A DNA stretch of 64,000 bases from NCBI RefSeq assembly GCF_013694095.1, contig NZ_JACEFB010000020.1:1-64000 (forward strand), in the 5' to 3' direction. Position numbers and translations under genes: made by a program. Under the pieces are notes generated by a model. It made no database searches and was not told the DNA's origin. It saw nothing but the letters and a program-made list of their open reading frames with translations. The DNA is from Thermogemmata fonticola (GTDB lineage Bacteria; Planctomycetota; Planctomycetia; Gemmatales; Gemmataceae). Below, one piece after another: positions 21,771 to 54,161 of the stretch. The stretch's first letter is position 1; each line of letters begins with the position of its first letter.

Positions 21771-21892
21771 AAACTTCCCACCGAATACGTGCCGGGGCTA
21801 TTCCGGCGGCTGCCCACTACACACCTTCGGTTCGGAGACACGGTTTTCCCTCCTGAACACTAACAGATTGGCGGGTGCGAGGTAACCTAATC

Positions 21893-23503
21893 ATGCGGTT
21901 GCGTACCATTGTGACAAGCGGGATGGGCCTGCTGCTCGCGGGTCTGTTGGCGGTTCTGCCTCCCTTGCCGTCCGCTTCGTTCTCTCTCATCGCTCAAGAG
22001 AAGAGCGGTTCCGGCAGCGGCCGGGGAGGGGCTGGCCCAGGGAGCGCGGCGCCGGTCAGCTACTACAAGGATATCCGCCCCATCCTGCAACAGCATTGCA
22101 ACGGCTGCCATCAACCGGCCAAACCGATGGGCGGCTACCTCACTACCAGTTACGCCGACTTATTCAAGGCCGGGGAGCGCGAGAAAGTCGGTATTGTACC
22201 AGGACGGCCGGATCAAAGTTATCTGGTCGAACAAATCCGCATCCATCCGAACGGCAAAGCGGAAATGCCCAAGGGGCGGGACCCTCTCTCTCCGGCCCAG
22301 ATCGACAAGATCGTCACCTGGATCGCCCAGGGAGCCAAGGATGACACTCCTCCCGCCGCTCGCACCGACGTGATCGATGCCGATCATCCCCCCAAGTACA
22401 ATTCGCCGCCGGTGATCACCGCTGTGGCCTACTCCCCCGATGGCCAGTTCCTGGCGGTGAGCGGCTATCACGAGGTGCTGCTTTACGACGCCGAAACGTT
22501 GGAATTGCGCGCCCGCCTCATCGGCATCTCCGAACGGATTCAGTCCCTGGCGTTCTCGCCCCAGGGAGACAAGCTGGCGGCGGTCGGCGGCGCACCGGGA
22601 CGCTTCGGCGAAGTCCAGGTGTGGGACTACCGCAAAGGCAAGCTGCTGCTCTCCGCCCCCTTCACCTATGACACGCTCTACGGCGTGAGCTGGTCCCCCG
22701 ATGGCCGCATGATCGCCTTCGGCTGCGCAGATAATACGGTGCGGGCCATCGATGCCCTGACCGGCAAGCAGGTGCTGCAAATGGGCACGCACACCGACTG
22801 GGTGCTCGGCACCGTCTTCTCCCAGGATGGGCAGCATCTGGTGTCGGTGAGCCGGGACATGAGCATGCGTCTGACCGAAGTGGCGACGCAGCGTTTCATC
22901 GATAGTGTCACCAGCATTACACCAGGAGCACTCAAAGGCGGACTGATGGCGGTGGATCGCCGGCCCTGGCCCAAGACGATCCCGGTGCGGTTCTGGGGCC
23001 GGACCTTGCAGGTGCCGCGGCCGCCCCGCTACCAGAAGGTGCCGCCGGATACGCCTGGCGTTCCCCCCAAACTCTACGACGAGGTCGTGGCGGCTGGATC
23101 GGATGGCACCCCCCGCCTCTACAAAATCCATCGGGAACAGAAGCGGGAAATCGGAGACGACGCCAATAAAATCCGCGACTACCAGCCGATGCCGGGACGC
23201 ATCTCCGCCGTGGCCTTCCATCCGGAGGGTCTGCTGTTCGCCGCAGCCAGCAGCCTCGACGGCACCGGCGAAGTCCGCATCTACGACGTCCGCCAAAGCG
23301 TCAAAAAGATCGTCTGCGAAAAAGTGAGCGGTCCGGCCTATACCGTGGCCTGGCACCCCAGCGGCCAACGGCTCGCCTCCGCGGGCTTCGACGGCATCGT
23401 CTGGATCCACGACGCCAACACCGGCAAACTGCTGCGGCAGTTCACCGTCCTGCCCGGCAGCCCGCCCCCCAGTAATCCTGGCACTCCCAACACCCCACGC
23501 TGA
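21893..23503 (+). CDS. planctomycete cytochrome C (PSCyt1-type) domain plus WD40 repeats
   Basis: 536 residues from ATG 21893, with GAGGT about 10 bases upstream. Signal peptide in residues 1-35 (MRLRTIVTSGMGLLLAGLLA). PSCyt1 domain about 55-150 with the heme-binding CNGCH at residues 69-73 and the typical KDIRPILQQHC and IVTWIAQGA. The rest is a WD40-type propeller with repeats such as AVAYSPDGQFLAVSG, SLAFSPQGDKLAAVGG, GVSWSPDGRMIAFGC and VAWHPSGQRLASAGFDG. A long insertion (about 350-430) follows the fifth blade. Probably periplasmic. The family is abundant in planctomycetes and its role is unknown. The following DUF1549/DUF1553 gene is a usual partner. Confidence 0.92.
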   Translation: MRLRTIVTSGMGLLLAGLLAVLPPLPSASFSLIAQEKSGSGSGRGGAGPGSAAPVSYYKDIRPILQQHCNGCHQPAKPMGGYLTTSYADLFKAGEREKVGIVPGRPDQSYLVEQIRIHPNGKAEMPKGRDPLSPAQIDKIVTWIAQGAKDDTPPAARTDVIDADHPPKYNSPPVITAVAYSPDGQFLAVSGYHEVLLYDAETLELRARLIGISERIQSLAFSPQGDKLAAVGGAPGRFGEVQVWDYRKGKLLLSAPFTYDTLYGVSWSPDGRMIAFGCADNTVRAIDALTGKQVLQMGTHTDWVLGTVFSQDGQHLVSVSRDMSMRLTEVATQRFIDSVTSITPGALKGGLMAVDRRPWPKTIPVRFWGRTLQVPRPPRYQKVPPDTPGVPPKLYDEVVAAGSDGTPRLYKIHREQKREIGDDANKIRDYQPMPGRISAVAFHPEGLLFAAASSLDGTGEVRIYDVRQSVKKIVCEKVSGPAYTVAWHPSGQRLASAGFDGIVWIHDANTGKLLRQFTVLPGSPPPSNPGTPNTPR

Positions 23504-27151: not shown

Positions 27152-27604
27152 GCCGCGGTTCCTGCGGTTTTTGCCCCCTCCGTTTGAGCCGCCGGGCCTG
27201 ATCCCTCGGGTCTGATTCTGCGGGAGAAGGCGGAGGGCGGCTGACCTCAGAAGCCGGAACTTGACCAAACCCAAGCCTCGCGGACCGGGACAGCCTCCCT
27301 CACCCCGGTCTGCTTTGTTTTTTTCTCCCCGCAACGAGGGAAGCACGCCGAGCGGTGAAGACGGCAAAAAAGGGCGCCCGGCGCAGTCGGTTTTTCCACA
27401 ATATCCTCAAAAGGAATCCTTCGAGAGGATAGCGGTTCATGCGACCGCGGTTCCCCTGTCCCTTGGGGGGAGACCCTCCTGCGGGGGGGGGCACCCAGTC
27501 AGTCTGCCGATTCAGGGGGAATAAGGGGAATAGGGGAACCGCGGCACCGCGGCACCGCACAGGAACAAACAAAGGCCAGCCAGGGCGAGTTGGGGAAGAA
27601 TCCC
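27152..27604. other. intergenic region with short tandem repeats
   Basis: About 450 bases. Contains short tandem repeats (GGGCCTGATCCCTC/GGGTCTGATTCTGC near 27197-27225; GGGGAATAAGGGGAATAGGGGAACC near 27517-27541; GCGGCACCGCGGCACCGC near 27541-27558) and a CCTGCGGGGGGGGGC run near 27478. No coding frame has protein character. Confidence 0.5.
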
Positions 27605-28708
27605 ATGGCAGGTGACGGACAGGAAGAACCGCAGAGCGTGCCGGAGGCTTTGCGGCGATGGCTGGAGTGGACGGTGCAGGTGGAAGCGTCGGACCTGCAT
27701 CTGGTGGCGGGTCACCCGCCGATGCTGCGCCTGCATGGGGAACTGACGGAGATGCCGGAGCCACCCCTGGAGGCCGCGGCGCTGGAACCGCTGCTCTTAT
27801 CGCTCTGCTCGCCGGAACAGGCGGAGCGGCTGAGTGCGAACCGCAACGTGGACTTCGCCGTGACGGTGGCCTTGGGGCAGGAGGTGGTCCGGTTGCGTGC
27901 GGCCTTGTTCCATGCAGGCCGGCAGTTGGCCGCCTGCTTCCGCCTTATTCCGTCACGCATTCCCGACCTGGCCTGGGCCGGCTTCCCCGCGGCGCTGGCG
28001 GATCGCCTCTGTGCCCTCCGCGATGGACTGGTCATCGTCACCGGGGCGACCGGTTCCGGCAAAACGACGACCCTGGCCATGCTGGTGGACCGCATCCATG
28101 CTCTCGGCGGGCGCCGCATTCTGACGGTGGAAGAACCTGTGGAGTATCTCTTCCCCCGCCGGCCGCATTCCCTGGTGACGCAGCGGGAAGTCGGCGTCGA
28201 TGTGCTCAGCTTTGCTGACGGCCTCAAATACGGCCTGCGCCAGGACCCCGATGTCCTGCTCATCGGCGAAGTCCGCGATCGCGAGACGGCCCAGATGGTG
28301 CTCTCGGCGGCGGAGACCGGCCACCTCGTCTTCACCACCCTGCACACCCGCGATGCCAAGGGCGCCATCACCCGCCTGGCCGATCTGTTCGCTCAGGAAG
28401 TGCAGAGCCTCATCCGCGCGCAGCTCGCCATGAGCCTGCGGGCTATTCTCAGCCAGCGCTTGCTGCCGGGTCTGGAACGGGGCAGCCGCCGCGTCCTGGC
28501 CCTGGAGGTCCTCTGGAACACCCACCCCATCGCCAGCGCTATCCGCAGCGGCAAGATCGAAAGTATCGACAACTACATCCTCACCGGACGCGAAGAGGGG
28601 ATGATCACCTTCGACGAATCGATCCGCCAGCTCTTCCGCGCCGGCCGCATCACCCGCCGCACTGCCGAAGAGCACATGGCCGATCCCACCCTCCTGCAAC
28701 GCCCGTGA
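27605..28708 (+). CDS. PilT-type secretion/twitching ATPase
   Basis: 367 residues from ATG 27605 (GGGGAAG upstream); a TTG at 27590 adds five residues. Hexameric ATPase of the type IV pilus/type II secretion family, cytoplasmic. The N-terminal PAS-like domain contains EASDLHLVAGHPPMLRLHGEL. Walker A GATGSGKT is at residues 147-154, the Asp box LTVEEPVEYLF follows, then Walker B VLLIGEVRD and the His box VFTTLHTRD. PilT-like members drive pilus retraction. It stands alone here without pilM-Q or a major pilin. DUF1559 pseudopilin-like genes occur 0.2 kb and about 23 kb away, a possible but unproven link. Confidence 0.93.
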   Translation: MAGDGQEEPQSVPEALRRWLEWTVQVEASDLHLVAGHPPMLRLHGELTEMPEPPLEAAALEPLLLSLCSPEQAERLSANRNVDFAVTVALGQEVVRLRAALFHAGRQLAACFRLIPSRIPDLAWAGFPAALADRLCALRDGLVIVTGATGSGKTTTLAMLVDRIHALGGRRILTVEEPVEYLFPRRPHSLVTQREVGVDVLSFADGLKYGLRQDPDVLLIGEVRDRETAQMVLSAAETGHLVFTTLHTRDAKGAITRLADLFAQEVQSLIRAQLAMSLRAILSQRLLPGLERGSRRVLALEVLWNTHPIASAIRSGKIESIDNYILTGREEGMITFDESIRQLFRAGRITRRTAEEHMADPTLLQRP

Positions 28709-30023: not shown

Positions 30024-32279
30024 TCAATACAGCCCCAGGTCCAGGGCGTTGGCCAGGGTTCGGCCCAGCCACCAGGCGGCGCTGCGCCAGCGGGCGTGGA
30101 TTTTGACGCTGGCCAATTGGCCCGGTTCGATCGCCGCATCCGGGTCGAGCAGTTCGACTTCGATGAGATAAACCTGGGCGAGGGGGATGAGGACGTTCGG
30201 GTCGTTGTGGGGTTTGACGGCCAGGGGGCCGCCGCCGCGATGGGTCAGTTGAATCGGGACGGTTTCGGCGTTTTGCGCGGGCAGAGTGGTGACGCGCCCG
30301 GTGAAGATGCGGTCGCTGCGGCCTTTGACCAGGATGGAGGCGCTGAGGGCGGGCTGCTGGGCGAGTTCCTCCTGGAGGAGGCGGTAATCCGGGGGTGTGA
30401 CCGGTACGCGAACGACGAGGCGCTGCGGGTCCCCGATGGCGAAGACGGGATGGGCTTCGCTGTACCCTTTGTCGAAGAGTTTGCCGACATCTTCCGGCTT
30501 AGGGGCGGTCAGGACGGTGCCGGGGCGCGGGGCACGCAATTCCCGCACCTGCTGGAGGCGCTGCTGGAGCAACTGGAGGCGGCGTTCGGCGCTGGCGGCC
30601 TTTTTGCGGGCCTCTTCGCGGGCCAGGCGCAACTGGGCCAGGGCAGCCTCGTCGGCCACGCCCAACTGGCGGCTGATCTCCTGCTGGAGGCGTTCGGCGA
30701 TGAGCTGCTCCGTTTCGGCGGCGGCCCTGGCCTGTTCGATTTCGACGAGCAGCGGCTCGCTGGTGAACTCGCCGAGCAACTCTCCGGCCCGAACAGTCTG
30801 ACCGGCGCGGGCGTGCAAGCGCTGCAAGCGGGCCGGCTCCGGCAGCAGGACGCTTTCCATCGCGGCGGGATGCACCGCGACCAGGCCAGTTTCATGGATG
30901 CGGCTCACCGGCAGCGGCAGGACAAAGAAGGCGGCCACCAAAGAGGCCGTCACAGCGAGCGTCACATACACACGTTTGGCTTTCATGTCCGGCAGGCGTC
31001 CTCGTTGGCGTATGTTGCGGATGATCCGATACGTCGGCCATACGAAAATCGACAGCAGCGACGCGATCGCCAGCATCTGGCTGAGAATCTTCAGCTTCGG
31101 GCCGAGGAAGTCTGAGAGCACCCAGAGGATGCCGAAGACTACAATCCAGCGGTATACCCAACTGGCGATGGCGTAGAAGATGAAGGTGGCCTTGCGGGCC
31201 GGCGACATGTACGGCTCCGGCGGCACCTCCACACCCAGGCAGCGCGACAAAAACAGATTGTTGAGGAAACGATTGGACCGCTCCCGCAGGTTCGGCACTT
31301 CCATCCAGTCCGCCAAAATGTAGTAACCGTCGAAGCGCATCAGCGGATTGGCGTTGAAAATGATCGTGGAAATGGAGCACAGGATCATCAGACAGATGGC
31401 GATGTTGTTGACCACCGGCAGATGGGGCGTGTACCACCAGACGAAGGTGGCGGCGGCGGCGATCATCAGCTCCACATAGATGCCCGCAAAGGAGATGATG
31501 ATCCGCTTCCACTTGTCCGCGAGCGTCCAGGCATCGGTGACATTGCAGTAAAGGCAGGGACTCAGGCACATGAGCAACAGGCCCATCTCGTGGCTTTCCC
31601 CGCCGAAAGCTTTGCAGGACAGGCCGTGGCCAAACTCGTGAATGATCTTCACCACGCCCAGAGAGAGCCAGATGTAAAGCATCGAGCGCCAGGTGAAGAA
31701 CTCGTGGTAAGCGGGCAGGCGGGCGTAGAAAGTGTCGAAGTGCAGCAGAACGTGGAAGACCGCGGCGCCAATGAACAGCACGCTCAGCACAAAAAACCAG
31801 CGGGTGAAGATCCACCAGGTGTAGCGGTACAGCCAACTCAGGATGCGGTCCGGATCGAAGACGGGGATTTTGATGTAGAGAATGTTGGTCAGGGTCATCA
31901 GGCGGCGGAGGCGGCGCTGTTTGGCGCGCCGCTCGAAGAGATGGGCGCCGGCACCGGGCGCCTCGTGCTGCACCAGCCCCGCCATGACCAACTGCCGCGC
32001 GAAACTCTCCAGGTCGTGATATTCCAGCCGGTGGGGCTTAAATTCCTCCTCAAAGCGTTCCCGCACCTGCTCCAGGGTGTGTTCCCCATCGAAGAGCCGG
32101 AAGACAAAATACTCCTGCTTGTTGAAGCGATAGTAGCGCAGGCAGACGGGGTCCTTGACGACGTGGTAGGTTTTGCCTTCGTATTTCTGCTCGAAGACTT
32201 GCAAGTCTGGCCGGACGCGCAGGCGGACCGCCTTACGGCGCACAGCGGGATCGTTGAGGCTATCGGTGGCGCGGCTCAT
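30024..32279 (-). CDS. PqqD-like / M50 zinc metalloprotease / HlyD adaptor fusion
   Basis: 751 residues. Residues 18-105 form a PqqD-like winged helix (RVRPDLQVFEQKYEGKTYHV, LVMAGLVQ). A membrane region of about eight helices (155-455) carries the site-2-protease signature: HEFGH at 214-218 (zinc ligands His and catalytic Glu) and NPLMRFDGYY at 311-320 with the third ligand Asp 317. A periplasmic HlyD adaptor follows: first half of the barrel-sandwich (about 460-510, LHARAGQTVRAGELLGEF), coiled coil (about 515-590), second half and beta-barrel (about 595-740). Membrane proteases of this kind fused to adaptors occur in bacteria with unknown substrates. Third gene of the triad, 80 bases after the WD40 adaptor gene. 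Confidence 0.9.
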   Translation of the reverse strand: MSRATDSLNDPAVRRKAVRLRVRPDLQVFEQKYEGKTYHVVKDPVCLRYYRFNKQEYFVFRLFDGEHTLEQVRERFEEEFKPHRLEYHDLESFARQLVMAGLVQHEAPGAGAHLFERRAKQRRLRRLMTLTNILYIKIPVFDPDRILSWLYRYTWWIFTRWFFVLSVLFIGAAVFHVLLHFDTFYARLPAYHEFFTWRSMLYIWLSLGVVKIIHEFGHGLSCKAFGGESHEMGLLLMCLSPCLYCNVTDAWTLADKWKRIIISFAGIYVELMIAAAATFVWWYTPHLPVVNNIAICLMILCSISTIIFNANPLMRFDGYYILADWMEVPNLRERSNRFLNNLFLSRCLGVEVPPEPYMSPARKATFIFYAIASWVYRWIVVFGILWVLSDFLGPKLKILSQMLAIASLLSIFVWPTYRIIRNIRQRGRLPDMKAKRVYVTLAVTASLVAAFFVLPLPVSRIHETGLVAVHPAAMESVLLPEPARLQRLHARAGQTVRAGELLGEFTSEPLLVEIEQARAAAETEQLIAERLQQEISRQLGVADEAALAQLRLAREEARKKAASAERRLQLLQQRLQQVRELRAPRPGTVLTAPKPEDVGKLFDKGYSEAHPVFAIGDPQRLVVRVPVTPPDYRLLQEELAQQPALSASILVKGRSDRIFTGRVTTLPAQNAETVPIQLTHRGGGPLAVKPHNDPNVLIPLAQVYLIEVELLDPDAAIEPGQLASVKIHARWRSAAWWLGRTLANALDLGLY

Positions 32280-32359
32280 GGCTCCTCAGCAGGCAAGTCC
32301 GCAGGCAGCAGTTCCCGTCAGGCTCCCGGCGAGGGGGAAACCCGACGTAGCCCGGCGTC

Positions 32360-34504
32360 CTACGGCAGCTTGTCCGGCGGCGGCACAATCACCGTCGCCG
32401 TACTCTTGTCCAGCAGGCGCAAGGCCCGGTTGTCCATTTCCACACGGACGGTTACAGAGCGAGGATCGGCGGCGTCGATGGTGACGATCCGCCCTTCTTG
32501 GCGGTGGGGCGGGGCTTTCGGCAGGGTCCAGAGGTGGACCGTGCCTTTGTCGGTGCCCAGGACAAAGAACGGCGTGGCGGCGGGCGGGCTGAACGCCGCG
32601 GCGGTAATTGCCACTCGACCCGGAGGAATCAAGCGGGCGATTTCCGCGGCCCGGCCCCCACTACGGGGCAGATGCCAGAGCTGGACGGTGCCTTTGAGGT
32701 CCCCTTCTCCGCCCACCGTGGCCAGGGTGTACGGCGGCCACTGCTCCGGCGGCAGCTCCGCGGGCAAAGTCTGCGGTTGGAACAGAGCCAACGTGGCGAA
32801 ACCGAGGTGAGGGCTGAAATTGATCACTTGTCCCACCGTTTGTCCGCTGTCCAGTTGGAGCAGGTCCAGGCGGCTCTTGTCATGATCGAAGAGGACGCGG
32901 GCGCCGTCGGGGCTGAGGCCGAGCACATCGAGCAGGCCGGCGCGGTGTTCCAGGGTGCGGGTCAAAGCGGCGCCTTCCCGGCCCAGTTTCCACACCTTGA
33001 GGGTGCGGTCGCGGCTGGCCGTCACCAACTGCCCCTGGGGGTTGAAGGCCAGGCTGGTGACGGTATCCCGGTGATCGGGGGGCAAGGCGTAGAGCCGCTC
33101 GCCGCTGGGCAGCGCCCAGAGCCAGACTTCACGCCCGGCGGCGGAGGCAGCGTAGCGGCCATCGGGACTGATGGCCACAAAACCGATGCCGGTCACGTGC
33201 GGCGGTTCGGCCTCCACCTTCGGCTGAGCGGGGAGGTGCTCCGGGTCGTCGATGTCCCAAATGCGCAGGCGGCCATCCTCGGCCCCGGTGACGACGAGTT
33301 GCCGCGGCGCTCCCGGAGGAGTGCAGGCCACGGAGCGGACCGGCGCCGGATGCGGCAGATTATGCCCCAAACTGGAACGTTCCGCCACCTGGGACAGGTT
33401 CGGGTCCCACACCACGGCGGTCCCATCTAGTCCCACCGACACCACCAGGGGGCGCTCGGCATGGCCGGAGACGGCCACCCCCGCCACCGGCTGACGGTGC
33501 GCGGACAGCGTCATCAGCGGGGCAGTCGGCAGGGTCGGCTCCACACTCACCGTCATGTGGCGGCGCAAGCGGGCGGCATATTGCACATCGAGCTGCCCTT
33601 CCAGGCGGACTTTGTCCGTCGATTGAATCTCCAGGATTTTGTCTCCGGCCCGCACATACTCGCCGGGCCAGCGGGCAATGTTGCGGATGATGCCGCTGAC
33701 CGTCGCCGTCACCCGGTGCTTCTGGATCAACAGGTCCGCCTCCTTGAGTTCCTGCTCGGCCTTGACGATCTGCTGGTTCACCTGGGCCAGGTTCTCCAGG
33801 AACCGGCTGAGCATGATGCGGTCGTCCAGAATGGTCGATTGCGGGATGACGTCGGGGTTGTTTTTGTACAGGTCGATTTTGCGTTGGGCGAAGTCGGCTC
33901 CCTTTTGGGCCTGTTCGCGGACTTCCTGGGCGGCGAGGCGGTTCTTCTCGGCCGCTTCCCGCCGGGTCTGAATCAATTGGTCATCCAGGAGGCAAACCGT
34001 CTGGCCCGCTTGGACGAAATCCCCTTCCTGAAGCCGCCAGTAGGGGTATTGCCGCTGGGGATCGCGGGGATGGAAGACGATGTTGGGATGGGGGCGCTCC
34101 GGGTCGTAGAGGATGGGGGGGCCATCGGGGCGGGGCCATTCGTAGCGGCCATCGGGTCGGCGCGTCAGGGGGGCGGCCAGCAATTCGATCCGGCCATCCA
34201 CTTCTGCCGAGACCTGTTGCCGCTCCTCGTATTGCACGAAGCAGTTGGGAATGATGATCGGTTCCGGGCCGACACGTAGGGGAGGAAACTGGGGGACGGG
34301 CTGCCCCTCGTAAAGCGGAGCCCCGATGGAGGCGGCAGCGGCAGTGGCGGATGAGCCATCGTCCGGCGGCGGCACCGGAACGGGCGAACCTGTGGGAGCA
34401 CATCCCGCAGCGAGCAGCAGGAGCCAGCCGCCCTTCTTCCACCAGGGACGTAACCTGGTTATCGCAGGTGCTGGGTTTCGATAGGCCGTCGATGTCTTTC
34501 TCAC
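32360..34504 (-). CDS. HlyD-type adaptor lipoprotein with inserted WD40 propeller
   Basis: 714 residues. Lipoprotein signal with lipobox LAAGC, lipidated Cys 35. Barrel-sandwich first half about 95-175 (QVSAEVDGRIELL, LQEGDFVQAGQTVCLLDD) and a coiled-coil hairpin about 177-262. The sandwich second half is at about 264-295 (TATVSGIIRNIARWPGEYV). The beta-barrel starts at 297-326 (KVRLEGQLDVQYAARLRRHM). A WD40 propeller of about seven blades occupies 333-665 (FVAISPDGRYAASAAGREV, SLAFNPQGQLVTASRDRTLK). The adaptor barrel then resumes at 667-714 (EGRIVTIDAADPRSVTVRVE). So the propeller is inserted inside the barrel, not added at an end. Middle gene of the operon; likely periplasmic, membrane-tethered. 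Confidence 0.88.
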   Translation of the reverse strand: MRKTSTAYRNPAPAITRLRPWWKKGGWLLLLAAGCAPTGSPVPVPPPDDGSSATAAAASIGAPLYEGQPVPQFPPLRVGPEPIIIPNCFVQYEERQQVSAEVDGRIELLAAPLTRRPDGRYEWPRPDGPPILYDPERPHPNIVFHPRDPQRQYPYWRLQEGDFVQAGQTVCLLDDQLIQTRREAAEKNRLAAQEVREQAQKGADFAQRKIDLYKNNPDVIPQSTILDDRIMLSRFLENLAQVNQQIVKAEQELKEADLLIQKHRVTATVSGIIRNIARWPGEYVRAGDKILEIQSTDKVRLEGQLDVQYAARLRRHMTVSVEPTLPTAPLMTLSAHRQPVAGVAVSGHAERPLVVSVGLDGTAVVWDPNLSQVAERSSLGHNLPHPAPVRSVACTPPGAPRQLVVTGAEDGRLRIWDIDDPEHLPAQPKVEAEPPHVTGIGFVAISPDGRYAASAAGREVWLWALPSGERLYALPPDHRDTVTSLAFNPQGQLVTASRDRTLKVWKLGREGAALTRTLEHRAGLLDVLGLSPDGARVLFDHDKSRLDLLQLDSGQTVGQVINFSPHLGFATLALFQPQTLPAELPPEQWPPYTLATVGGEGDLKGTVQLWHLPRSGGRAAEIARLIPPGRVAITAAAFSPPAATPFFVLGTDKGTVHLWTLPKAPPHRQEGRIVTIDAADPRSVTVRVEMDNRALRLLDKSTATVIVPPPDKLP

Positions 34505-34642
34505 GCGCTTACCCTCAATCCGGACAATGACGCCTCGCGGACAGTTCCTGACCAGGTGATTGCTCAGCCGAAGGTTTCCTAGCCGAAAGTTTGCCTCGGT
34601 GCATTTTCACGTGCGGCGGTTCAGGGTCCGGGTTCCCCCGGT

Positions 34643-36799
34643 TCAGAAGAAGAAGATGATCTTTTCGTAGAACCACTCCCAGACGCCGTGGAAGAGGGAA
34701 TATCCCAGGGCATGTTGGCCGCAGCGGATGCGGGTGCGCACTTCCAGGCCGGTGACGAACTGGCTGCGCGGGGCTTGCAGGTGCGGCGGAATGTCCGGGG
34801 CTTGCAGCTTGACATAGGCGGTGACGACCGGTTCGTTATCGGTCAGTTCCTGCTGGTTGGGCACCGCCTGGGCAGTCAGGCCGTTTTCGTAGAGCCGGCC
34901 GAGGAAGCGGGTATCGGGCATGCTGGACAGGAGAAGGTCCACATCCAGATATTTGCGTCCGGTGGCGGCCTCGACGTGATGGAGGCGCGGGTCGGCGAAC
35001 GCCCGGCGGATGTGGCCGATGTTGCGCTGGGGGATTTTCAGTTCGACGTGCCACACTCCTTCCAGGTTGCCGACGCGGAGCAGCTCTTCGTGGGGCCGAA
35101 TGGTGCGGCCCAGGAGTTTATCCCGCCGGTCGTCGTCCAGCACCGTCCAGATGGGGGGGCGTTCCCGCGGCAGGGCCGGATCGAAGCGCGGGGCAACGGC
35201 GCGGAACTTGCCCAGCGGTTCCGGCAGGCAGAGGTATTCGCGCAGCAGGGCCTGGTATTCGCGGTCGGCAGCCTCCCGGCGCAGGCGGGCCGTCTCCCGC
35301 TGGGTCTCGTAGGTGGCTCGGTCGCGCACGTCTCGCAACTCCCGCAGGATTTGCTCGGCGGCCTCGAATTGCCCCTGGGCTTCATTGCGCTGGCTCAGGG
35401 CCTGCTGCAACCGCTGCGCCAGCTCCGCACTGTAAAGATGCACGACATCGTAATCCGGTGCGATCTTCTGACCGGGACGCACGCGGATATCGACCACCAC
35501 CCCTTCGGTGCGGGGAAAGATTTGGGCGATCTCTTCCGGGAGCAATTGCCCCTTGGCGTCCAGACGCAGAGGGTAGGGGACGGCGATGAGGCAGCCGATG
35601 AGGATAGCCAAGAGCAGGCCGATGGCCAGGGCGTAGAAGCGTCCTTTGCCGCCGAGACCCTCCTGGATCGCCAGCAGGGGTTTCCAGAGCAGCCGCAGAG
35701 GGACGCGCTTCATTTCCGCGGCGTTGTAGAGGGCGGGCGCGGCATGCTTGCCGACCACTTCCAGGCGCTGGATGAGCGGTTCCACCTGCTCCGGCGGATT
35801 GAACACTTCCAGCACCAGAATGGAGCGAGGCGGCTTGTTGGGGTCTTTTTCACGGGGATCGCGGATCGGTTGGGCCACGAGGAACTTGGGATGGCTTTCC
35901 GCCAGGTAGGCATCTAAGGCCGTGGCGACCTGCGGCGGCAGGCCAGCTTCCCGCGTTCCCTTGAATACCAGGGTTTCCCCCCAGTGCAGCACCTGCTCCA
36001 TCAAGCGGCGCAGGCAGCGGATGTGGGTGCTCGCCTTTTCCACCACGTCCGCCCCGCTGACGGCTTCCACCGTCACCCGCGAGCGCCCGTGCCGCACTCC
36101 CACGCTGAGCCGGTCGCAGTCGATCAGTTTGCGGCCTTCGTTGGCCACGTGATACGCCACTTCCGTCGGATGCAGGGAGGAATGAATCAGCCGGGCGAAG
36201 GCTTCGATCTGGGTAAAGGTCCGTTCGATGTTCGGATCCGCCCGCTGGCTCAGATAAGCGTGGAACTGGCTGGCATAGCCCGCCATTTGGGCCGTATAGT
36301 TGAGGAAGGCGGGGTAAAGCCGGGGGTCATGGTTCGGTTCCTGGAAGACTTCCAGCAGTCCCAGCGAGTGTTTGTCAGGGGTGAGAATCGGGGCAAGCAG
36401 AATGAAGTAGTTGGTGAGGTTGGCGGCGGGGATGGGGGCATTCTCGGCGCCGGGGGGCGTGAGGCGGCCATTCGGTTCGAGCAAGGCCGGCCGCGGCGGC
36501 TGAGCCTGAAACACCTGGCGGAGCAATTCGTTATGGCATTGTCGGCAGCCGCGCTTCTCGTCCAAACCCACCTGGTCCAGACGCACCTGACACGCCAATT
36601 GTAAAAAGCCTTGCGGGGTCCGCAGCCAGATCGCTCCGGCCTTCGCCTCGATCGTTCCTAACGTCTTGTGAAGCAACTGCTCGTAAAAATCGCTGGGGGG
36701 CAGATGGGAGCCGGCCAGCTTCGCTGCCGCCTCGAAGCTCTCCTCGATCCGGCGCGTATAACGCTGCCGCTCATCTGTTACCGCAGGATTGACGCTCAC
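34643..36799 (-). CDS. GAF-domain / HlyD adaptor fusion, inner membrane
   Basis: 718 residues, first gene of the operon. Residues 20-185 and 190-365 look like two GAF domains (GTIEAKAGAIWLRTPQGFLQ; LIDCDRLSVGVRHGRSRV; ILVLEVFNPPEQVEPL). One transmembrane helix at 388-408 (FYALAIGLLLAILIGCLIAV) should place the GAF part in the cytoplasm and the remainder in the periplasm. The remainder is HlyD-like: EEIAQIFPRTEGVVVDIRVR, a coiled coil (about 455-535) and a beta-barrel (GVWHVELKIPQRNIGHIRRA). The first GAF contains CRQCH (85-89), a CxxCH-like motif. The layout suggests a signal-responsive adaptor. The family is not familiar to me beyond its domains. Confidence 0.85.
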   Translation of the reverse strand: MSVNPAVTDERQRYTRRIEESFEAAAKLAGSHLPPSDFYEQLLHKTLGTIEAKAGAIWLRTPQGFLQLACQVRLDQVGLDEKRGCRQCHNELLRQVFQAQPPRPALLEPNGRLTPPGAENAPIPAANLTNYFILLAPILTPDKHSLGLLEVFQEPNHDPRLYPAFLNYTAQMAGYASQFHAYLSQRADPNIERTFTQIEAFARLIHSSLHPTEVAYHVANEGRKLIDCDRLSVGVRHGRSRVTVEAVSGADVVEKASTHIRCLRRLMEQVLHWGETLVFKGTREAGLPPQVATALDAYLAESHPKFLVAQPIRDPREKDPNKPPRSILVLEVFNPPEQVEPLIQRLEVVGKHAAPALYNAAEMKRVPLRLLWKPLLAIQEGLGGKGRFYALAIGLLLAILIGCLIAVPYPLRLDAKGQLLPEEIAQIFPRTEGVVVDIRVRPGQKIAPDYDVVHLYSAELAQRLQQALSQRNEAQGQFEAAEQILRELRDVRDRATYETQRETARLRREAADREYQALLREYLCLPEPLGKFRAVAPRFDPALPRERPPIWTVLDDDRRDKLLGRTIRPHEELLRVGNLEGVWHVELKIPQRNIGHIRRAFADPRLHHVEAATGRKYLDVDLLLSSMPDTRFLGRLYENGLTAQAVPNQQELTDNEPVVTAYVKLQAPDIPPHLQAPRSQFVTGLEVRTRIRCGQHALGYSLFHGVWEWFYEKIIFFF

Positions 36800-51527: not shown

Positions 51528-52394
51528 TCACCAGTCGGGGCCGAGGACCTCGCCGCCGTTGGGAGTCACCGCCGCCCAGAACGTCTGCGGACTGATCTGA
51601 GGAGAGATCATCCGCACGCTGCCGTCTGCCAGTCCTGCCAACAGGCCATGCGTGTAGGGACTCTGAGGAATGCGGGGGTCGGCCTCCTCGATCTTGGGAC
51701 GGAGCTGGAAGGTCACGCTCTGCGCCTCCGCCGACCCCGGCAAGACATCGCCATAAAACGGATTGGCAAATGCGGCTGGACGCATTTCGATAGTCATATT
51801 GACACCATCAATGTCGATAGGAGGTACAGGGGGCAAAACAATATTTATTTCCATACCCCATGATCGTAACATACGATATATATCTTGATCACTTCTCTTC
51901 ATCTTCTTGTTGGCATAACAGGTTGTGATCTCGATGGTGTTGGACATGCCATCACGAATCAAGGCTGATCGATTAGCATGGAATTCCTTGTAAATCTGAG
52001 CATTGATGCAGTAACTCGCCACTCCAATTCTTTGAATGGCAAGGGAGGGATCATCCTCGTTCAGATAGGGCGGCATCACTTCGGCACCCCACAAGGCCTC
52101 TCCTTTGGGTCCGTTCGGGAGCATCTTCTCGTAGTATGCACCGCGCTCCATGTAGGGGAGAATTTCCACGAAGATGCTGTTGTAGCCAATGCGGTCATGG
52201 TTATCGGCATACATATGGATCGCCAGCGCGATCTGTCTAACCTTGTTTTTCTCCCGCGTCACGGAGGCGCTGAGCCGCACCTTCTGCACCGCGGGCAGGA
52301 GCAAGGCCAGCAGGATCGCCACAATGGCAACCGCTACCAGGAACTCCAGCAGGCTGAGCGCCGGGCGTCTTTCTGACATTTGGAAAGGGATCAT
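51528..52394 (-). CDS. DUF1559 pseudopilin-like protein, copy A
   Basis: 288 residues; last in transcription order of three tandem copies. Prepilin-like N-terminus: RPALSLLEFLVAVAIVAILL with Glu at position +5 of the putative mature protein and Ala rather than Gly before the cleavage site, then ALLLPAVQKVR. DUF1559 C-terminus: HGLLAGLADGSVRMISPQIS (H-x9-DG) and NGGEVLGPDW. Probably processed by a prepilin peptidase and inserted in the inner membrane or a pilus-like fibre; role unknown in the family. Differs from copies B and C only in a patch (KKMKRSDQDIYRMLRSWGME to DIDGVNMTIEM), and from C in the N-terminal 55 residues. Confidence 0.93.
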   Translation of the reverse strand: MIPFQMSERRPALSLLEFLVAVAIVAILLALLLPAVQKVRLSASVTREKNKVRQIALAIHMYADNHDRIGYNSIFVEILPYMERGAYYEKMLPNGPKGEALWGAEVMPPYLNEDDPSLAIQRIGVASYCINAQIYKEFHANRSALIRDGMSNTIEITTCYANKKMKRSDQDIYRMLRSWGMEINIVLPPVPPIDIDGVNMTIEMRPAAFANPFYGDVLPGSAEAQSVTFQLRPKIEEADPRIPQSPYTHGLLAGLADGSVRMISPQISPQTFWAAVTPNGGEVLGPDW

Positions 52395-52412
52395 GGTTGT
52401 GCCCTCGTGCTG

Positions 52413-53276
52413 TCACCAGTCGGGGCCGAGGACTTCGCCGCCGTTGGGAGTCACCGCCGCCCAGAACGTCTGCGGACTGATCTGCGGGGAGATCATCCGC
52501 ACGCTGCCGTCTGCCAGTCCTGCCAACAGGCCATGCGTGTAGGGACTCTGAGGAATGCGGGGGTCGGCCTCCTCGATCTTGGGACGGAGCTGGAAGGTCA
52601 CGCTCTGCGCCTCCGCCGACCCCGGCAAGACATCGCCATAAAACGGATTGGCAAATGCGGCTGGACGAAATTCAAGAGTAAATTGTATACCATTAATGGT
52701 GATAGGAGGTGAGGGTCGAATAAAATTTATCTCGAAGCCCCAAAATCTTTTGACATCATGCTGTGAATATTGTCCGTTTTGTTTCATTATGTTGGCATAA
52801 CAGGTTGTGATCTCGATGGTGTTGGACATGCCATCACGAATCAAGGCTGATCGATTAGCATGGAATTCCTTGTAAATCTGAGCATTGATGCAGTAACTCG
52901 CCACTCCAATTCTTTGAATGGCAAGGGAGGGATCATCCTCGTTCAGATAGGGCGGCATCACTTCGGCACCCCACAAGGCCTCTCCTTTGGGTCCGTTCGG
53001 GAGCATCTTCTCGTAGTATGCACCGCGCTCCATGTAGGGGAGAATTTCCACGAAGATGCTGTTGTAGCCAATGCGGTCATGGTTATCGGCATACATATGG
53101 ATCGCCAGCGCGATCTGTCTAACCTTGTTTTTCTCCCGCGTCACGGAGGCGCTGAGCCGCACCTTCTGCACCGCGGGCAGGAGCAAGGCCAGCAGGATCG
53201 CCACAATGGCAACCGCTACCAGGAACTCCAGCAGGCTGAGCGCCGGGCGTCTTTCTGACATTTGGAAAGGGATCAT
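52413..53276 (-). CDS. DUF1559 pseudopilin-like protein, copy B (hybrid)
   Basis: 287 residues, middle copy. Its first ~75 residues match copy A (MIPFQMSERRPALS, VRLSASVTREKNKVRQIALA). Its variable patch matches copy C (IMKQNGQYSQHDVKRFWGFE, TINGIQFTLEF). Everything else is common to all three. The leader is the same as in copy A, including an 18-base spacer to the preceding copy. Family features as in copy A: class III-like leader with Ala before the cut, DUF1559 body, H-x9-DG motif. Confidence 0.93.
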   Translation of the reverse strand: MIPFQMSERRPALSLLEFLVAVAIVAILLALLLPAVQKVRLSASVTREKNKVRQIALAIHMYADNHDRIGYNSIFVEILPYMERGAYYEKMLPNGPKGEALWGAEVMPPYLNEDDPSLAIQRIGVASYCINAQIYKEFHANRSALIRDGMSNTIEITTCYANIMKQNGQYSQHDVKRFWGFEINFIRPSPPITINGIQFTLEFRPAAFANPFYGDVLPGSAEAQSVTFQLRPKIEEADPRIPQSPYTHGLLAGLADGSVRMISPQISPQTFWAAVTPNGGEVLGPDW

Positions 53277-53294
53277 GGTTGTGCCCTCGTGCTG

Positions 53295-54161
53295 TCACCA
53301 GTCGGGGCCGAGGACTTCGCCGCCGTTGGGAGTCACCGCCGCCCAGAACGTCTGCGGACTGATCTGCGGGGAGATCATCCGCACGCTGCCGTCTGCCAGT
53401 CCTGCCAACAGGCCATGCGTGTAGGGACTCTGAGGAATGCGGGGGTCGGCCTCCTCGATCTTGGGACGGAGCTGGAAGGTCACGCTCTGCGCCTCCGCCG
53501 ACCCCGGCAAGACATCGCCATAAAACGGATTGGCAAATGCGGCTGGACGAAATTCAAGAGTAAATTGTATACCATTAATGGTGATAGGAGGTGAGGGTCG
53601 AATAAAATTTATCTCGAAGCCCCAAAATCTTTTGACATCATGCTGTGAATATTGTCCGTTTTGTTTCATTATGTTGGCATAACAGGTTGTGATCTCGATG
53701 GTGTTGGACATGCCATCACGAATCAAGGCTGATCGATTAGCATGGAATTCCTTGTAAATCTGAGCATTGATGCAGTAACTCGCCACTCCAATTCTTTGAA
53801 TGGCAAGGGAGGGATCATCCTCGTTCAGATAGGGCGGCATCACTTCGGCACCCCACAAGGCCTCTCCTTTGGGTCCGTTCGGGAGCATCTTCTCGTAGTA
53901 TGCACCGCGCTCCATGTAGGGGAGAATTTCCACGAAGATGCTGTTGTAGCCGATGCGGTCATGGTTATCGGCATACATATGGATCGCCAGCGTGATCTGT
54001 TTGACCTTGTTTTTCTCCCGCAGCAGAGAAGCAGCCGAGCGCACCTTCTGCACCGCGGGCAGGAGGAGGGCCAGCAGGATCGCCACAATGGCAACCGCCA
54101 CCAGGAACTCCAGCAGGCTGAGCGCCGGGCGTGTATTAGACTTCAGCACACTATGCAACAT
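53295..54161 (-). CDS. DUF1559 pseudopilin-like protein, copy C
   Basis: 288 residues, first in transcription order. The N-terminus (MLHSVLKSNTRPALS, VRSAASLLREKNKVKQITLA) differs from A and B, the rest equals B. Upstream lies AATTGATTTCTCCTTGTC on the plus strand, so the transcript has GGAGAAATC (complement) as ribosome binding site. This copy probably carries the promoter for the array; B and A follow after 18-base spacers with no room for their own promoters. Confidence 0.93.
   Translation of the reverse strand: MLHSVLKSNTRPALSLLEFLVAVAIVAILLALLLPAVQKVRSAASLLREKNKVKQITLAIHMYADNHDRIGYNSIFVEILPYMERGAYYEKMLPNGPKGEALWGAEVMPPYLNEDDPSLAIQRIGVASYCINAQIYKEFHANRSALIRDGMSNTIEITTCYANIMKQNGQYSQHDVKRFWGFEINFIRPSPPITINGIQFTLEFRPAAFANPFYGDVLPGSAEAQSVTFQLRPKIEEADPRIPQSPYTHGLLAGLADGSVRMISPQISPQTFWAAVTPNGGEVLGPDW

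Follow-up and report, generated by a model that had tools for sequence, protein, structure and literature searches.

The operon P3-P2-P1 of Thermogemmata fonticola probably encodes those components of a dedicated exporter that sit in the membrane and the periplasm. Its cargo would be large proteins with a LEPR-XLL-type leader at the N-terminus. The link of this exporter to LEPR-type proteins is well supported by co-occurrence and by operonic linkage. Planctomycetes encode many very large proteins for which an export route has so far been lacking, and no function for the catalogued LEPR-XLL motif was found in the literature. A near-universal exporter and this motif are thereby joined into one testable question.

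The operon and its products

The window, i.e. the whole stretch of 64,000 nucleotides that was analysed, contains three co-directional genes on the minus strand, which according to the ORF calls run from position 36799 to 30024. P3 (34643 to 36799, minus strand; 718 aa, GTG start) combines a pair of GAF-like domains in the cytoplasm with a single membrane helix and an HlyD-type adaptor in the periplasm. It is followed after 138 bases (34505 to 34642) by P2 (32360 to 34504, minus strand; 714 aa, GTG start), which has a lipoprotein signal (LLLAAGC), an HlyD-type adaptor and a WD40 propeller. A further 80 bases (32280 to 32359) separate P2 from P1 (30024 to 32279, minus strand; 751 aa, ATG start), in which a PqqD-like domain, an M50 metalloprotease (HEFGH, NPLMRFDG) and a periplasmic HlyD-type domain are combined. 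The original prediction of three co-oriented genes spaced 138 and 80 bases apart is thus borne out by the ORF coordinates, and its assignment of an HlyD module with a different partner to each gene by profile matches, orthologues and structure models. It had also stated that the window holds no pump or channel gene; indeed, gene calling of the window and Pfam scans of 13 of its other genes recognised no ABC, RND, MFS or TolC gene there.

Pfam and NCBIfam directly support the M50, HlyD and WD40 assignments. In P1, the M50 domain matched PF02163 (E 4.5e-8) in the Pfam profile search, next to an HlyD match and a weak PqqD match. The PqqD match is weak but recurrent among the orthologues (10 of 29). 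The M50 residues H214, E215 and H218 of the HExxH motif and N311, P312 and D317 of NPLMRFDG were invariant in all 29. In the structure model of P1 (pLDDT 83.3), a PqqD-type domain at the N-terminus is followed by a membrane-helix bundle, a single helix and the periplasmic HlyD part.

P2 matched WD40 repeats (5e-24) and HlyD_3 (7.5e-11) in Pfam. The WD40 fusion is mainly a feature of Gemmatales, with a few further lineages sharing it; outside these, P2 usually has about 320 aa and consists of an HlyD adaptor alone. Its lipobox is clear in the window protein, and only 9 of 70 relatives match the strict pattern; hence we do not claim lipid anchoring of P2 in general. A second WD40 protein is encoded in the window (21875 to 23503, plus strand). 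It carries a planctomycete cytochrome C motif and matches the WD40 part of P2; possibly, this gene is the source of the fused propeller.

The HlyD part of P3 matched HlyD_D23 in Pfam. No significant Pfam GAF match was obtained for the window P3 itself, and 23 of 29 P3 orthologues did match GAF. Modelling of P3 (pLDDT 88.7) gave two domains of GAF-like fold besides the membrane helix and the HlyD part, and the fold search retrieved the GAF domain of PDE5A together with AcrA/MacA. In the fold searches of the models, the HlyD parts matched AcrA, MexA, MacA and ZneB.

Two further features of the window may be recorded. A PilT/PilU-family ATPase gene (27590 to 28708, plus strand), which lies beside a DUF1559 protein, adjoins the operon; its recurrence with the operon was not seen among the conserved neighbours of relatives. 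Three tandem, near-identical pilin-like genes of 287-288 codons each occupy 51528 to 54161 on the minus strand.

Conservation and partner genes

Of 102 genomes from the order Gemmatales, 92 contained P1. For the class Planctomycetia the count was 284 of 290 genomes of good quality, and for the other classes of the phylum 51 of the 242 sampled. In 60 fetched and 80 named loci the genes for P3, P2 and P1 usually occurred together, within the class in the order P3-P2-P1. Since this gene order is kept across Planctomycetia, the arrangement is not due to chance. The three adaptors are therefore conserved as a unit, as had been expected, and an ABC transporter is not constantly adjacent to them.

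When the neighbours in the 60 loci were clustered, two partners recurred, each at 13 loci: DUF3467 and a SecA-like ATPase with a length of about 650 aa. Outside Planctomycetia P3, P1 and SecA are commonly contiguous, and in some proteobacterial loci TolC joins the operon. In Gemmatales the SecA, TolC and cargo genes are all unlinked to the operon, so that homology and co-occurrence are the basis of the cargo link in this order. The initial description of the operon as lacking a transporter stands insofar as none was recognised in the window; it is incomplete, as other lineages have a SecA-like ATPase and TolC-family channels.

These neighbourhoods bear on two other explanations. The genes could be a fragment of a conventional type I system, in which the adaptors dock on an ABC (or RND or MFS) transporter encoded elsewhere and the M50, PqqD and GAF domains are accessory. 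The fit of the HlyD folds to AcrA, MacA and ZneB would agree with this, as would the TolC-family (OEP) genes, which were found in 20 of 20 genomes tested (in the window's genome on other contigs than the operon) as well as within some operons. However, an ABC gene recurred beside the set neither in the 60 loci nor within the SecA-type plasmid operons described below, and the ATPase that does recur is SecA-like and is lost together with P1. We thus consider a type I fragment unlikely.

The second explanation, a system for maturation and export of RiPPs or other small peptides, is very improbable. It is suggested by the PqqD-M50 part of P1, which resembles the proteases of daptides (NF041824, residues 25-417, 1.2e-50, 172.7 bits) and of the epipeptide type (NF058609, 2.7e-12, 46.9 bits), but both scores stay below the models' own cut-offs of 300 and 225. 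Moreover, no RiPP precursor or modifying enzyme recurred in the neighbour clustering around the 60 loci, and the genes linked to the set encode large repeat proteins. The small RiPP-like precursors that had been envisaged as substrates thus give way to candidate cargo proteins of 423 to >16,000 aa.

The window's genome encodes a short SecA on contig C5, unlinked to the operon on contig C20 (G000:C5:83703-85592; 714-aa ORF with SecA_DEAD, PP_bind and P-loop domains). It retains the motifs GEGKT, DEAD and GRGTD, and the SecA_SW region had no match in the profile search. The accessory-Sec models TIGR03714 and TIGR04221 scored 531 and 463 bits against it, respectively, below their cut-offs of 930 and 725.

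Candidate cargo proteins with a LEPR-type motif

The lead to a cargo came from several of the loci, where a large gene close by encodes a LEPR-like N-terminus. The LEPR-XLL model NF012209 gave no match above its cut-off in the window's genome. For this reason, a local motif profile was built from pattern matches. A pattern search for LExLE[DEPS]RxxP close to the N-terminus had yielded at least nine frames. In this genome the motif has the form LExLExRxxP and lies about 10-40 residues into the protein, behind an Arg-rich start. The motif proteins with a clear start have 423 to 4,124 aa, and the longer ones carry Big, RHS or ELWxxDGT repeats. The 12-residue maximum of their N-terminal hydropathy was at most 0.65, versus 1.75-2.3 for the Sec-type signals of the window (two short motif frames with uncertain starts were left out). 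In two proteobacterial giants the stretch at or after the motif is moderately hydrophobic (1.7-1.8), and the lack of a Sec-like signal therefore applies to the window's genome only.

According to a third explanation, the module merely processes and displays proteins already exported by the housekeeping Sec system, with M50 trimming them in the membrane and the adaptors anchoring them at the cell surface. M50 proteases do normally cleave within membranes, and the SecA-like ATPase could work through SecYEG, as Gram-positive SecA2 does. Yet the cargo N-termini in the window's genome have no hydrophobic Sec signal, the short SecA has no SecA_SW match and several operons include a TolC channel. We therefore regard processing of Sec substrates as improbable and favor export by the module itself.

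For the phylum, NF012209 was searched over the same 294 genomes as P1, with a LEPR call at E<=0.01. Outside the class, P1 was found in 32 of 34 genomes with LEPR-XLL and in 19 of the 208 others (Fisher 2.7e-24). To allow for relatedness among the genomes, the comparison was also made family by family; 29 joint occurrences were observed versus 22.6 expected (CMH chi2 23.8, permutation p ~1e-5). By the positions of the listed matches, 7 of these genomes have a LEPR gene no more than about 10 kb from P1, with 1.25 expected (p 3e-4). The LEPR match of one genome (G408) looks spurious and was set aside. In cargo proteins linked to the exporter, the model reached 24.7 bits in Thalassospira and 18.3 bits at locus L115 (cut-off 17).

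Within Planctomycetia, the local-motif profile matched 295 of 298 genomes at E<=1, usually many times. As the profile was partly built from the window's genome, its 24 matches there are circular; those in most other genomes are not. Absences are partly joint: three genomes (G177, a single contig with 100% completeness, G214 and G141) have neither P1 nor the short SecA nor convincing motif matches. Three others (G058, G060 and G040) retain both the motif and the short SecA; their lack of P1 probably reflects assembly gaps or incomplete genomes, and in a sister genome (G057) P3 lies at a contig edge. There are also counter-cases. G519, a 91% complete MAG, encodes clear LEPR-XLL giants (L168, L169), but P1 and the short SecA were not found in it; conversely, the exporter is present in G144 and G240, where the motif profile gave no match at E<=1.

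Proteobacterial plasmids provide operonic linkage. A tblastn search with P1 against plasmids yielded 78 records. Fourteen loci were opened (none from Escherichia, to which 18 of the matching records belong, and a single record from each set of similar Azospirillum and Citrobacter plasmids), and 13 were readable for a neighbouring large gene. Such a gene of about 1,900-16,240 codons, with a LEPR-type motif near the N-terminus, was present in 10 of the 13. In the remaining loci, a LEPR neighbour was not seen at that of Phyllobacterium or at the unannotated one of Indioceanicola, and no LEPR motif was read at that of Magnetospirillum, where the neighbouring gene is short and lacks its 5' part.

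Five of the ten loci show LEPR-[ILV]LL or FEPR-VLL together with GAF-HlyD and PqqD-M50-HlyD; SecA-like and DUF3467 genes are each present in four of these five. In Thalassospira marina the order is LEPR-XLL protein, DUF3467, GAF-HlyD, PqqD/M50/HlyD, HlyD, TolC. In Methylosinus a giant of about 8,850 aa (N-terminus TLEPRVLLNAD) is followed by DUF3467, GAF-HlyD, PqqD-M50-HlyD, SecA-like, HlyD and TolC. The giants of Pseudosulfitobacter and Mesorhizobium have about 12,740 aa (FEPRVLLSAD) and about 10,500 aa (LEPRLLLSAD), respectively. That of the Alisedimentitalea scapharcae plasmid (L315/L322; about 8,150 aa) has LEPRLLLAAD in frame just upstream of its annotated start, which looks mis-annotated. 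The SecA-like ATPases are annotated as "prepilin peptidase" in Methylosinus C49 (L316:17150-19066) and as "DEAD/DEAH box helicase" in Mesorhizobium, and therefore searches by name would miss them.

The other five loci (Azospirillum, Tistrella, Cupriavidus, Variovorax, Citrobacter) have no SecA and contain genes for HlyD, HlyD and M50-HlyD. Large proteins nearby have LEPRxMFDAA-like N-termini, i.e. LE[PAS]R forms ending in FDAA, FDGA or YDAA. Because of these variants, SecA cannot be the sole energy source in the wider family. The ORF of the Variovorax paradoxus VAI-C plasmid (L332/L334, CP063167 19413-68132) spans 48.7 kb, i.e. about 16,240 codons, with tandem-95 repeats; it has ALEARYMFDAAA at its N-terminus and sits in a TolC/HlyD/HlyD/M50-HlyD operon. 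The conjugative IncHI1B/IncP plasmid pB18196_2 of Citrobacter freundii (L320, NZ_CP142906) combines a SecA-less operon with a 4,465-aa Ig-like protein. Two sets of publications were set aside as support: the secreted Ig-like proteins of IncHI plasmids are reported to be exported through the plasmid's type IV system (PMC6764697, PMC8730810), and the study on DDxP proteins deals with RTX proteins and ordinary type I systems (PMC7730722).

Proposed mechanism and relation to known systems

An export role, as originally proposed, is likely in view of the conserved unit and its linkage to LEPR-type cargo. The mechanism, which we infer in all its steps from gene content and order, domains, intact active-site residues, conservation and linkage, would be as follows. 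The PqqD-like domain would bind the leader in the cytoplasm; we regard the case for such recognition as evenly balanced. The short SecA-like ATPase, which lacks SecA_SW and is encoded on another contig, would then push the chain, and SecA-like energisation may equally well prove right or wrong. In SecA-less relatives the energy supply would differ or come in trans. The M50 membrane domain could cleave the leader and/or form part of the passage; cleavage we consider somewhat less probable than its absence. That PqqD recognises the substrate and M50 cleaves it had been suggested before, and both roles fit a cargo of proteins with LEPR leaders. Docking through the WD40 propeller, also suggested, would be specific to the lineages with this fusion. 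The HlyD parts of P1, P3 and P2 may together build a mixed duct that crosses the periplasm to a TolC-family channel, and the GAF domains could gate this duct by ligand; a mixed ring of the three adaptors is plausible.

Whether the genes define a distinct class of double-membrane exporter, with PqqD/M50 replacing the ABC transporter, SecA-like energy, a mixed duct of three HlyD proteins and LEPR-XLL as the export signal, is a tentative proposal that falls just short of an even chance. If true, this secretion route would rely on an N-terminal leader, and a SecA-like motor would stand where other systems have an ABC transporter; leader recognition would possibly be related to that of RiPP proteases. 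Among the candidate cargo are proteins of >16,000 residues, which rank with the largest predicted for bacteria.

Tripartite RND and ABC pumps (AcrAB-TolC, MacAB-TolC) share the adaptor fold; here, however, there is no pump, and each adaptor is joined to a GAF, WD40 or PqqD-M50 part. With type I secretion (HlyB-HlyD-TolC; LapA-type) the system shares HlyD adaptors, a TolC-type channel in some operons and large repeat or RTX-like cargo. It differs in its SecA-like ATPase, in that an HlyB-type ABC transporter was not recognised, in the PqqD-M50 part of the membrane component and in the N-terminal motif of the cargo, whereas the type I signal is C-terminal. Accessory Sec systems (SecA2 or SecA2-SecY2) likewise have a second, shorter SecA paralogue with its own cargo. 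In contrast to these, the SecA2 cut-offs are not reached here, HlyD adaptors and M50 stand alongside and no SecY2 was seen in the loci. The M50 proteases of daptides and epipeptides (YydH/LiaK) also combine a PqqD-like domain with M50 and HExxH; unlike them, P1 is fused to HlyD and occurs in the context of large proteins, no RiPP enzymes accompany it and the family cut-offs are not reached.

The closest relative is a published module, so the system is not undescribed as had been assumed. Kamneva, Poudel and Ward (2015, PMC4452313) tied secondary SecA_DEAD proteins to HlyD, M50 and GAF-HlyD proteins in Planctomycetes and Proteobacteria, and also reported unlinked SecA copies. They proposed SecA as the ATPase and the M50 protein as the membrane part, with a broader role that was "completely unknown". 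Their paper names no cargo, and in a search of its text PqqD, DUF3467 and LEPR were absent. We found no paper linking the module to a cargo in a literature search that covered few subscription papers. The gene families are the same: M50-HlyD, GAF-HlyD and SecA_DEAD without full SecA_SW all occur here, whereas the co-localisation of SecA and HlyD does not occur in the window's genome. Beyond the 2015 module, our analysis adds DUF3467, the WD40 fusion and the cargo link. The machine was already known; what is new is its candidate cargo, most likely the large proteins of the LEPR type.
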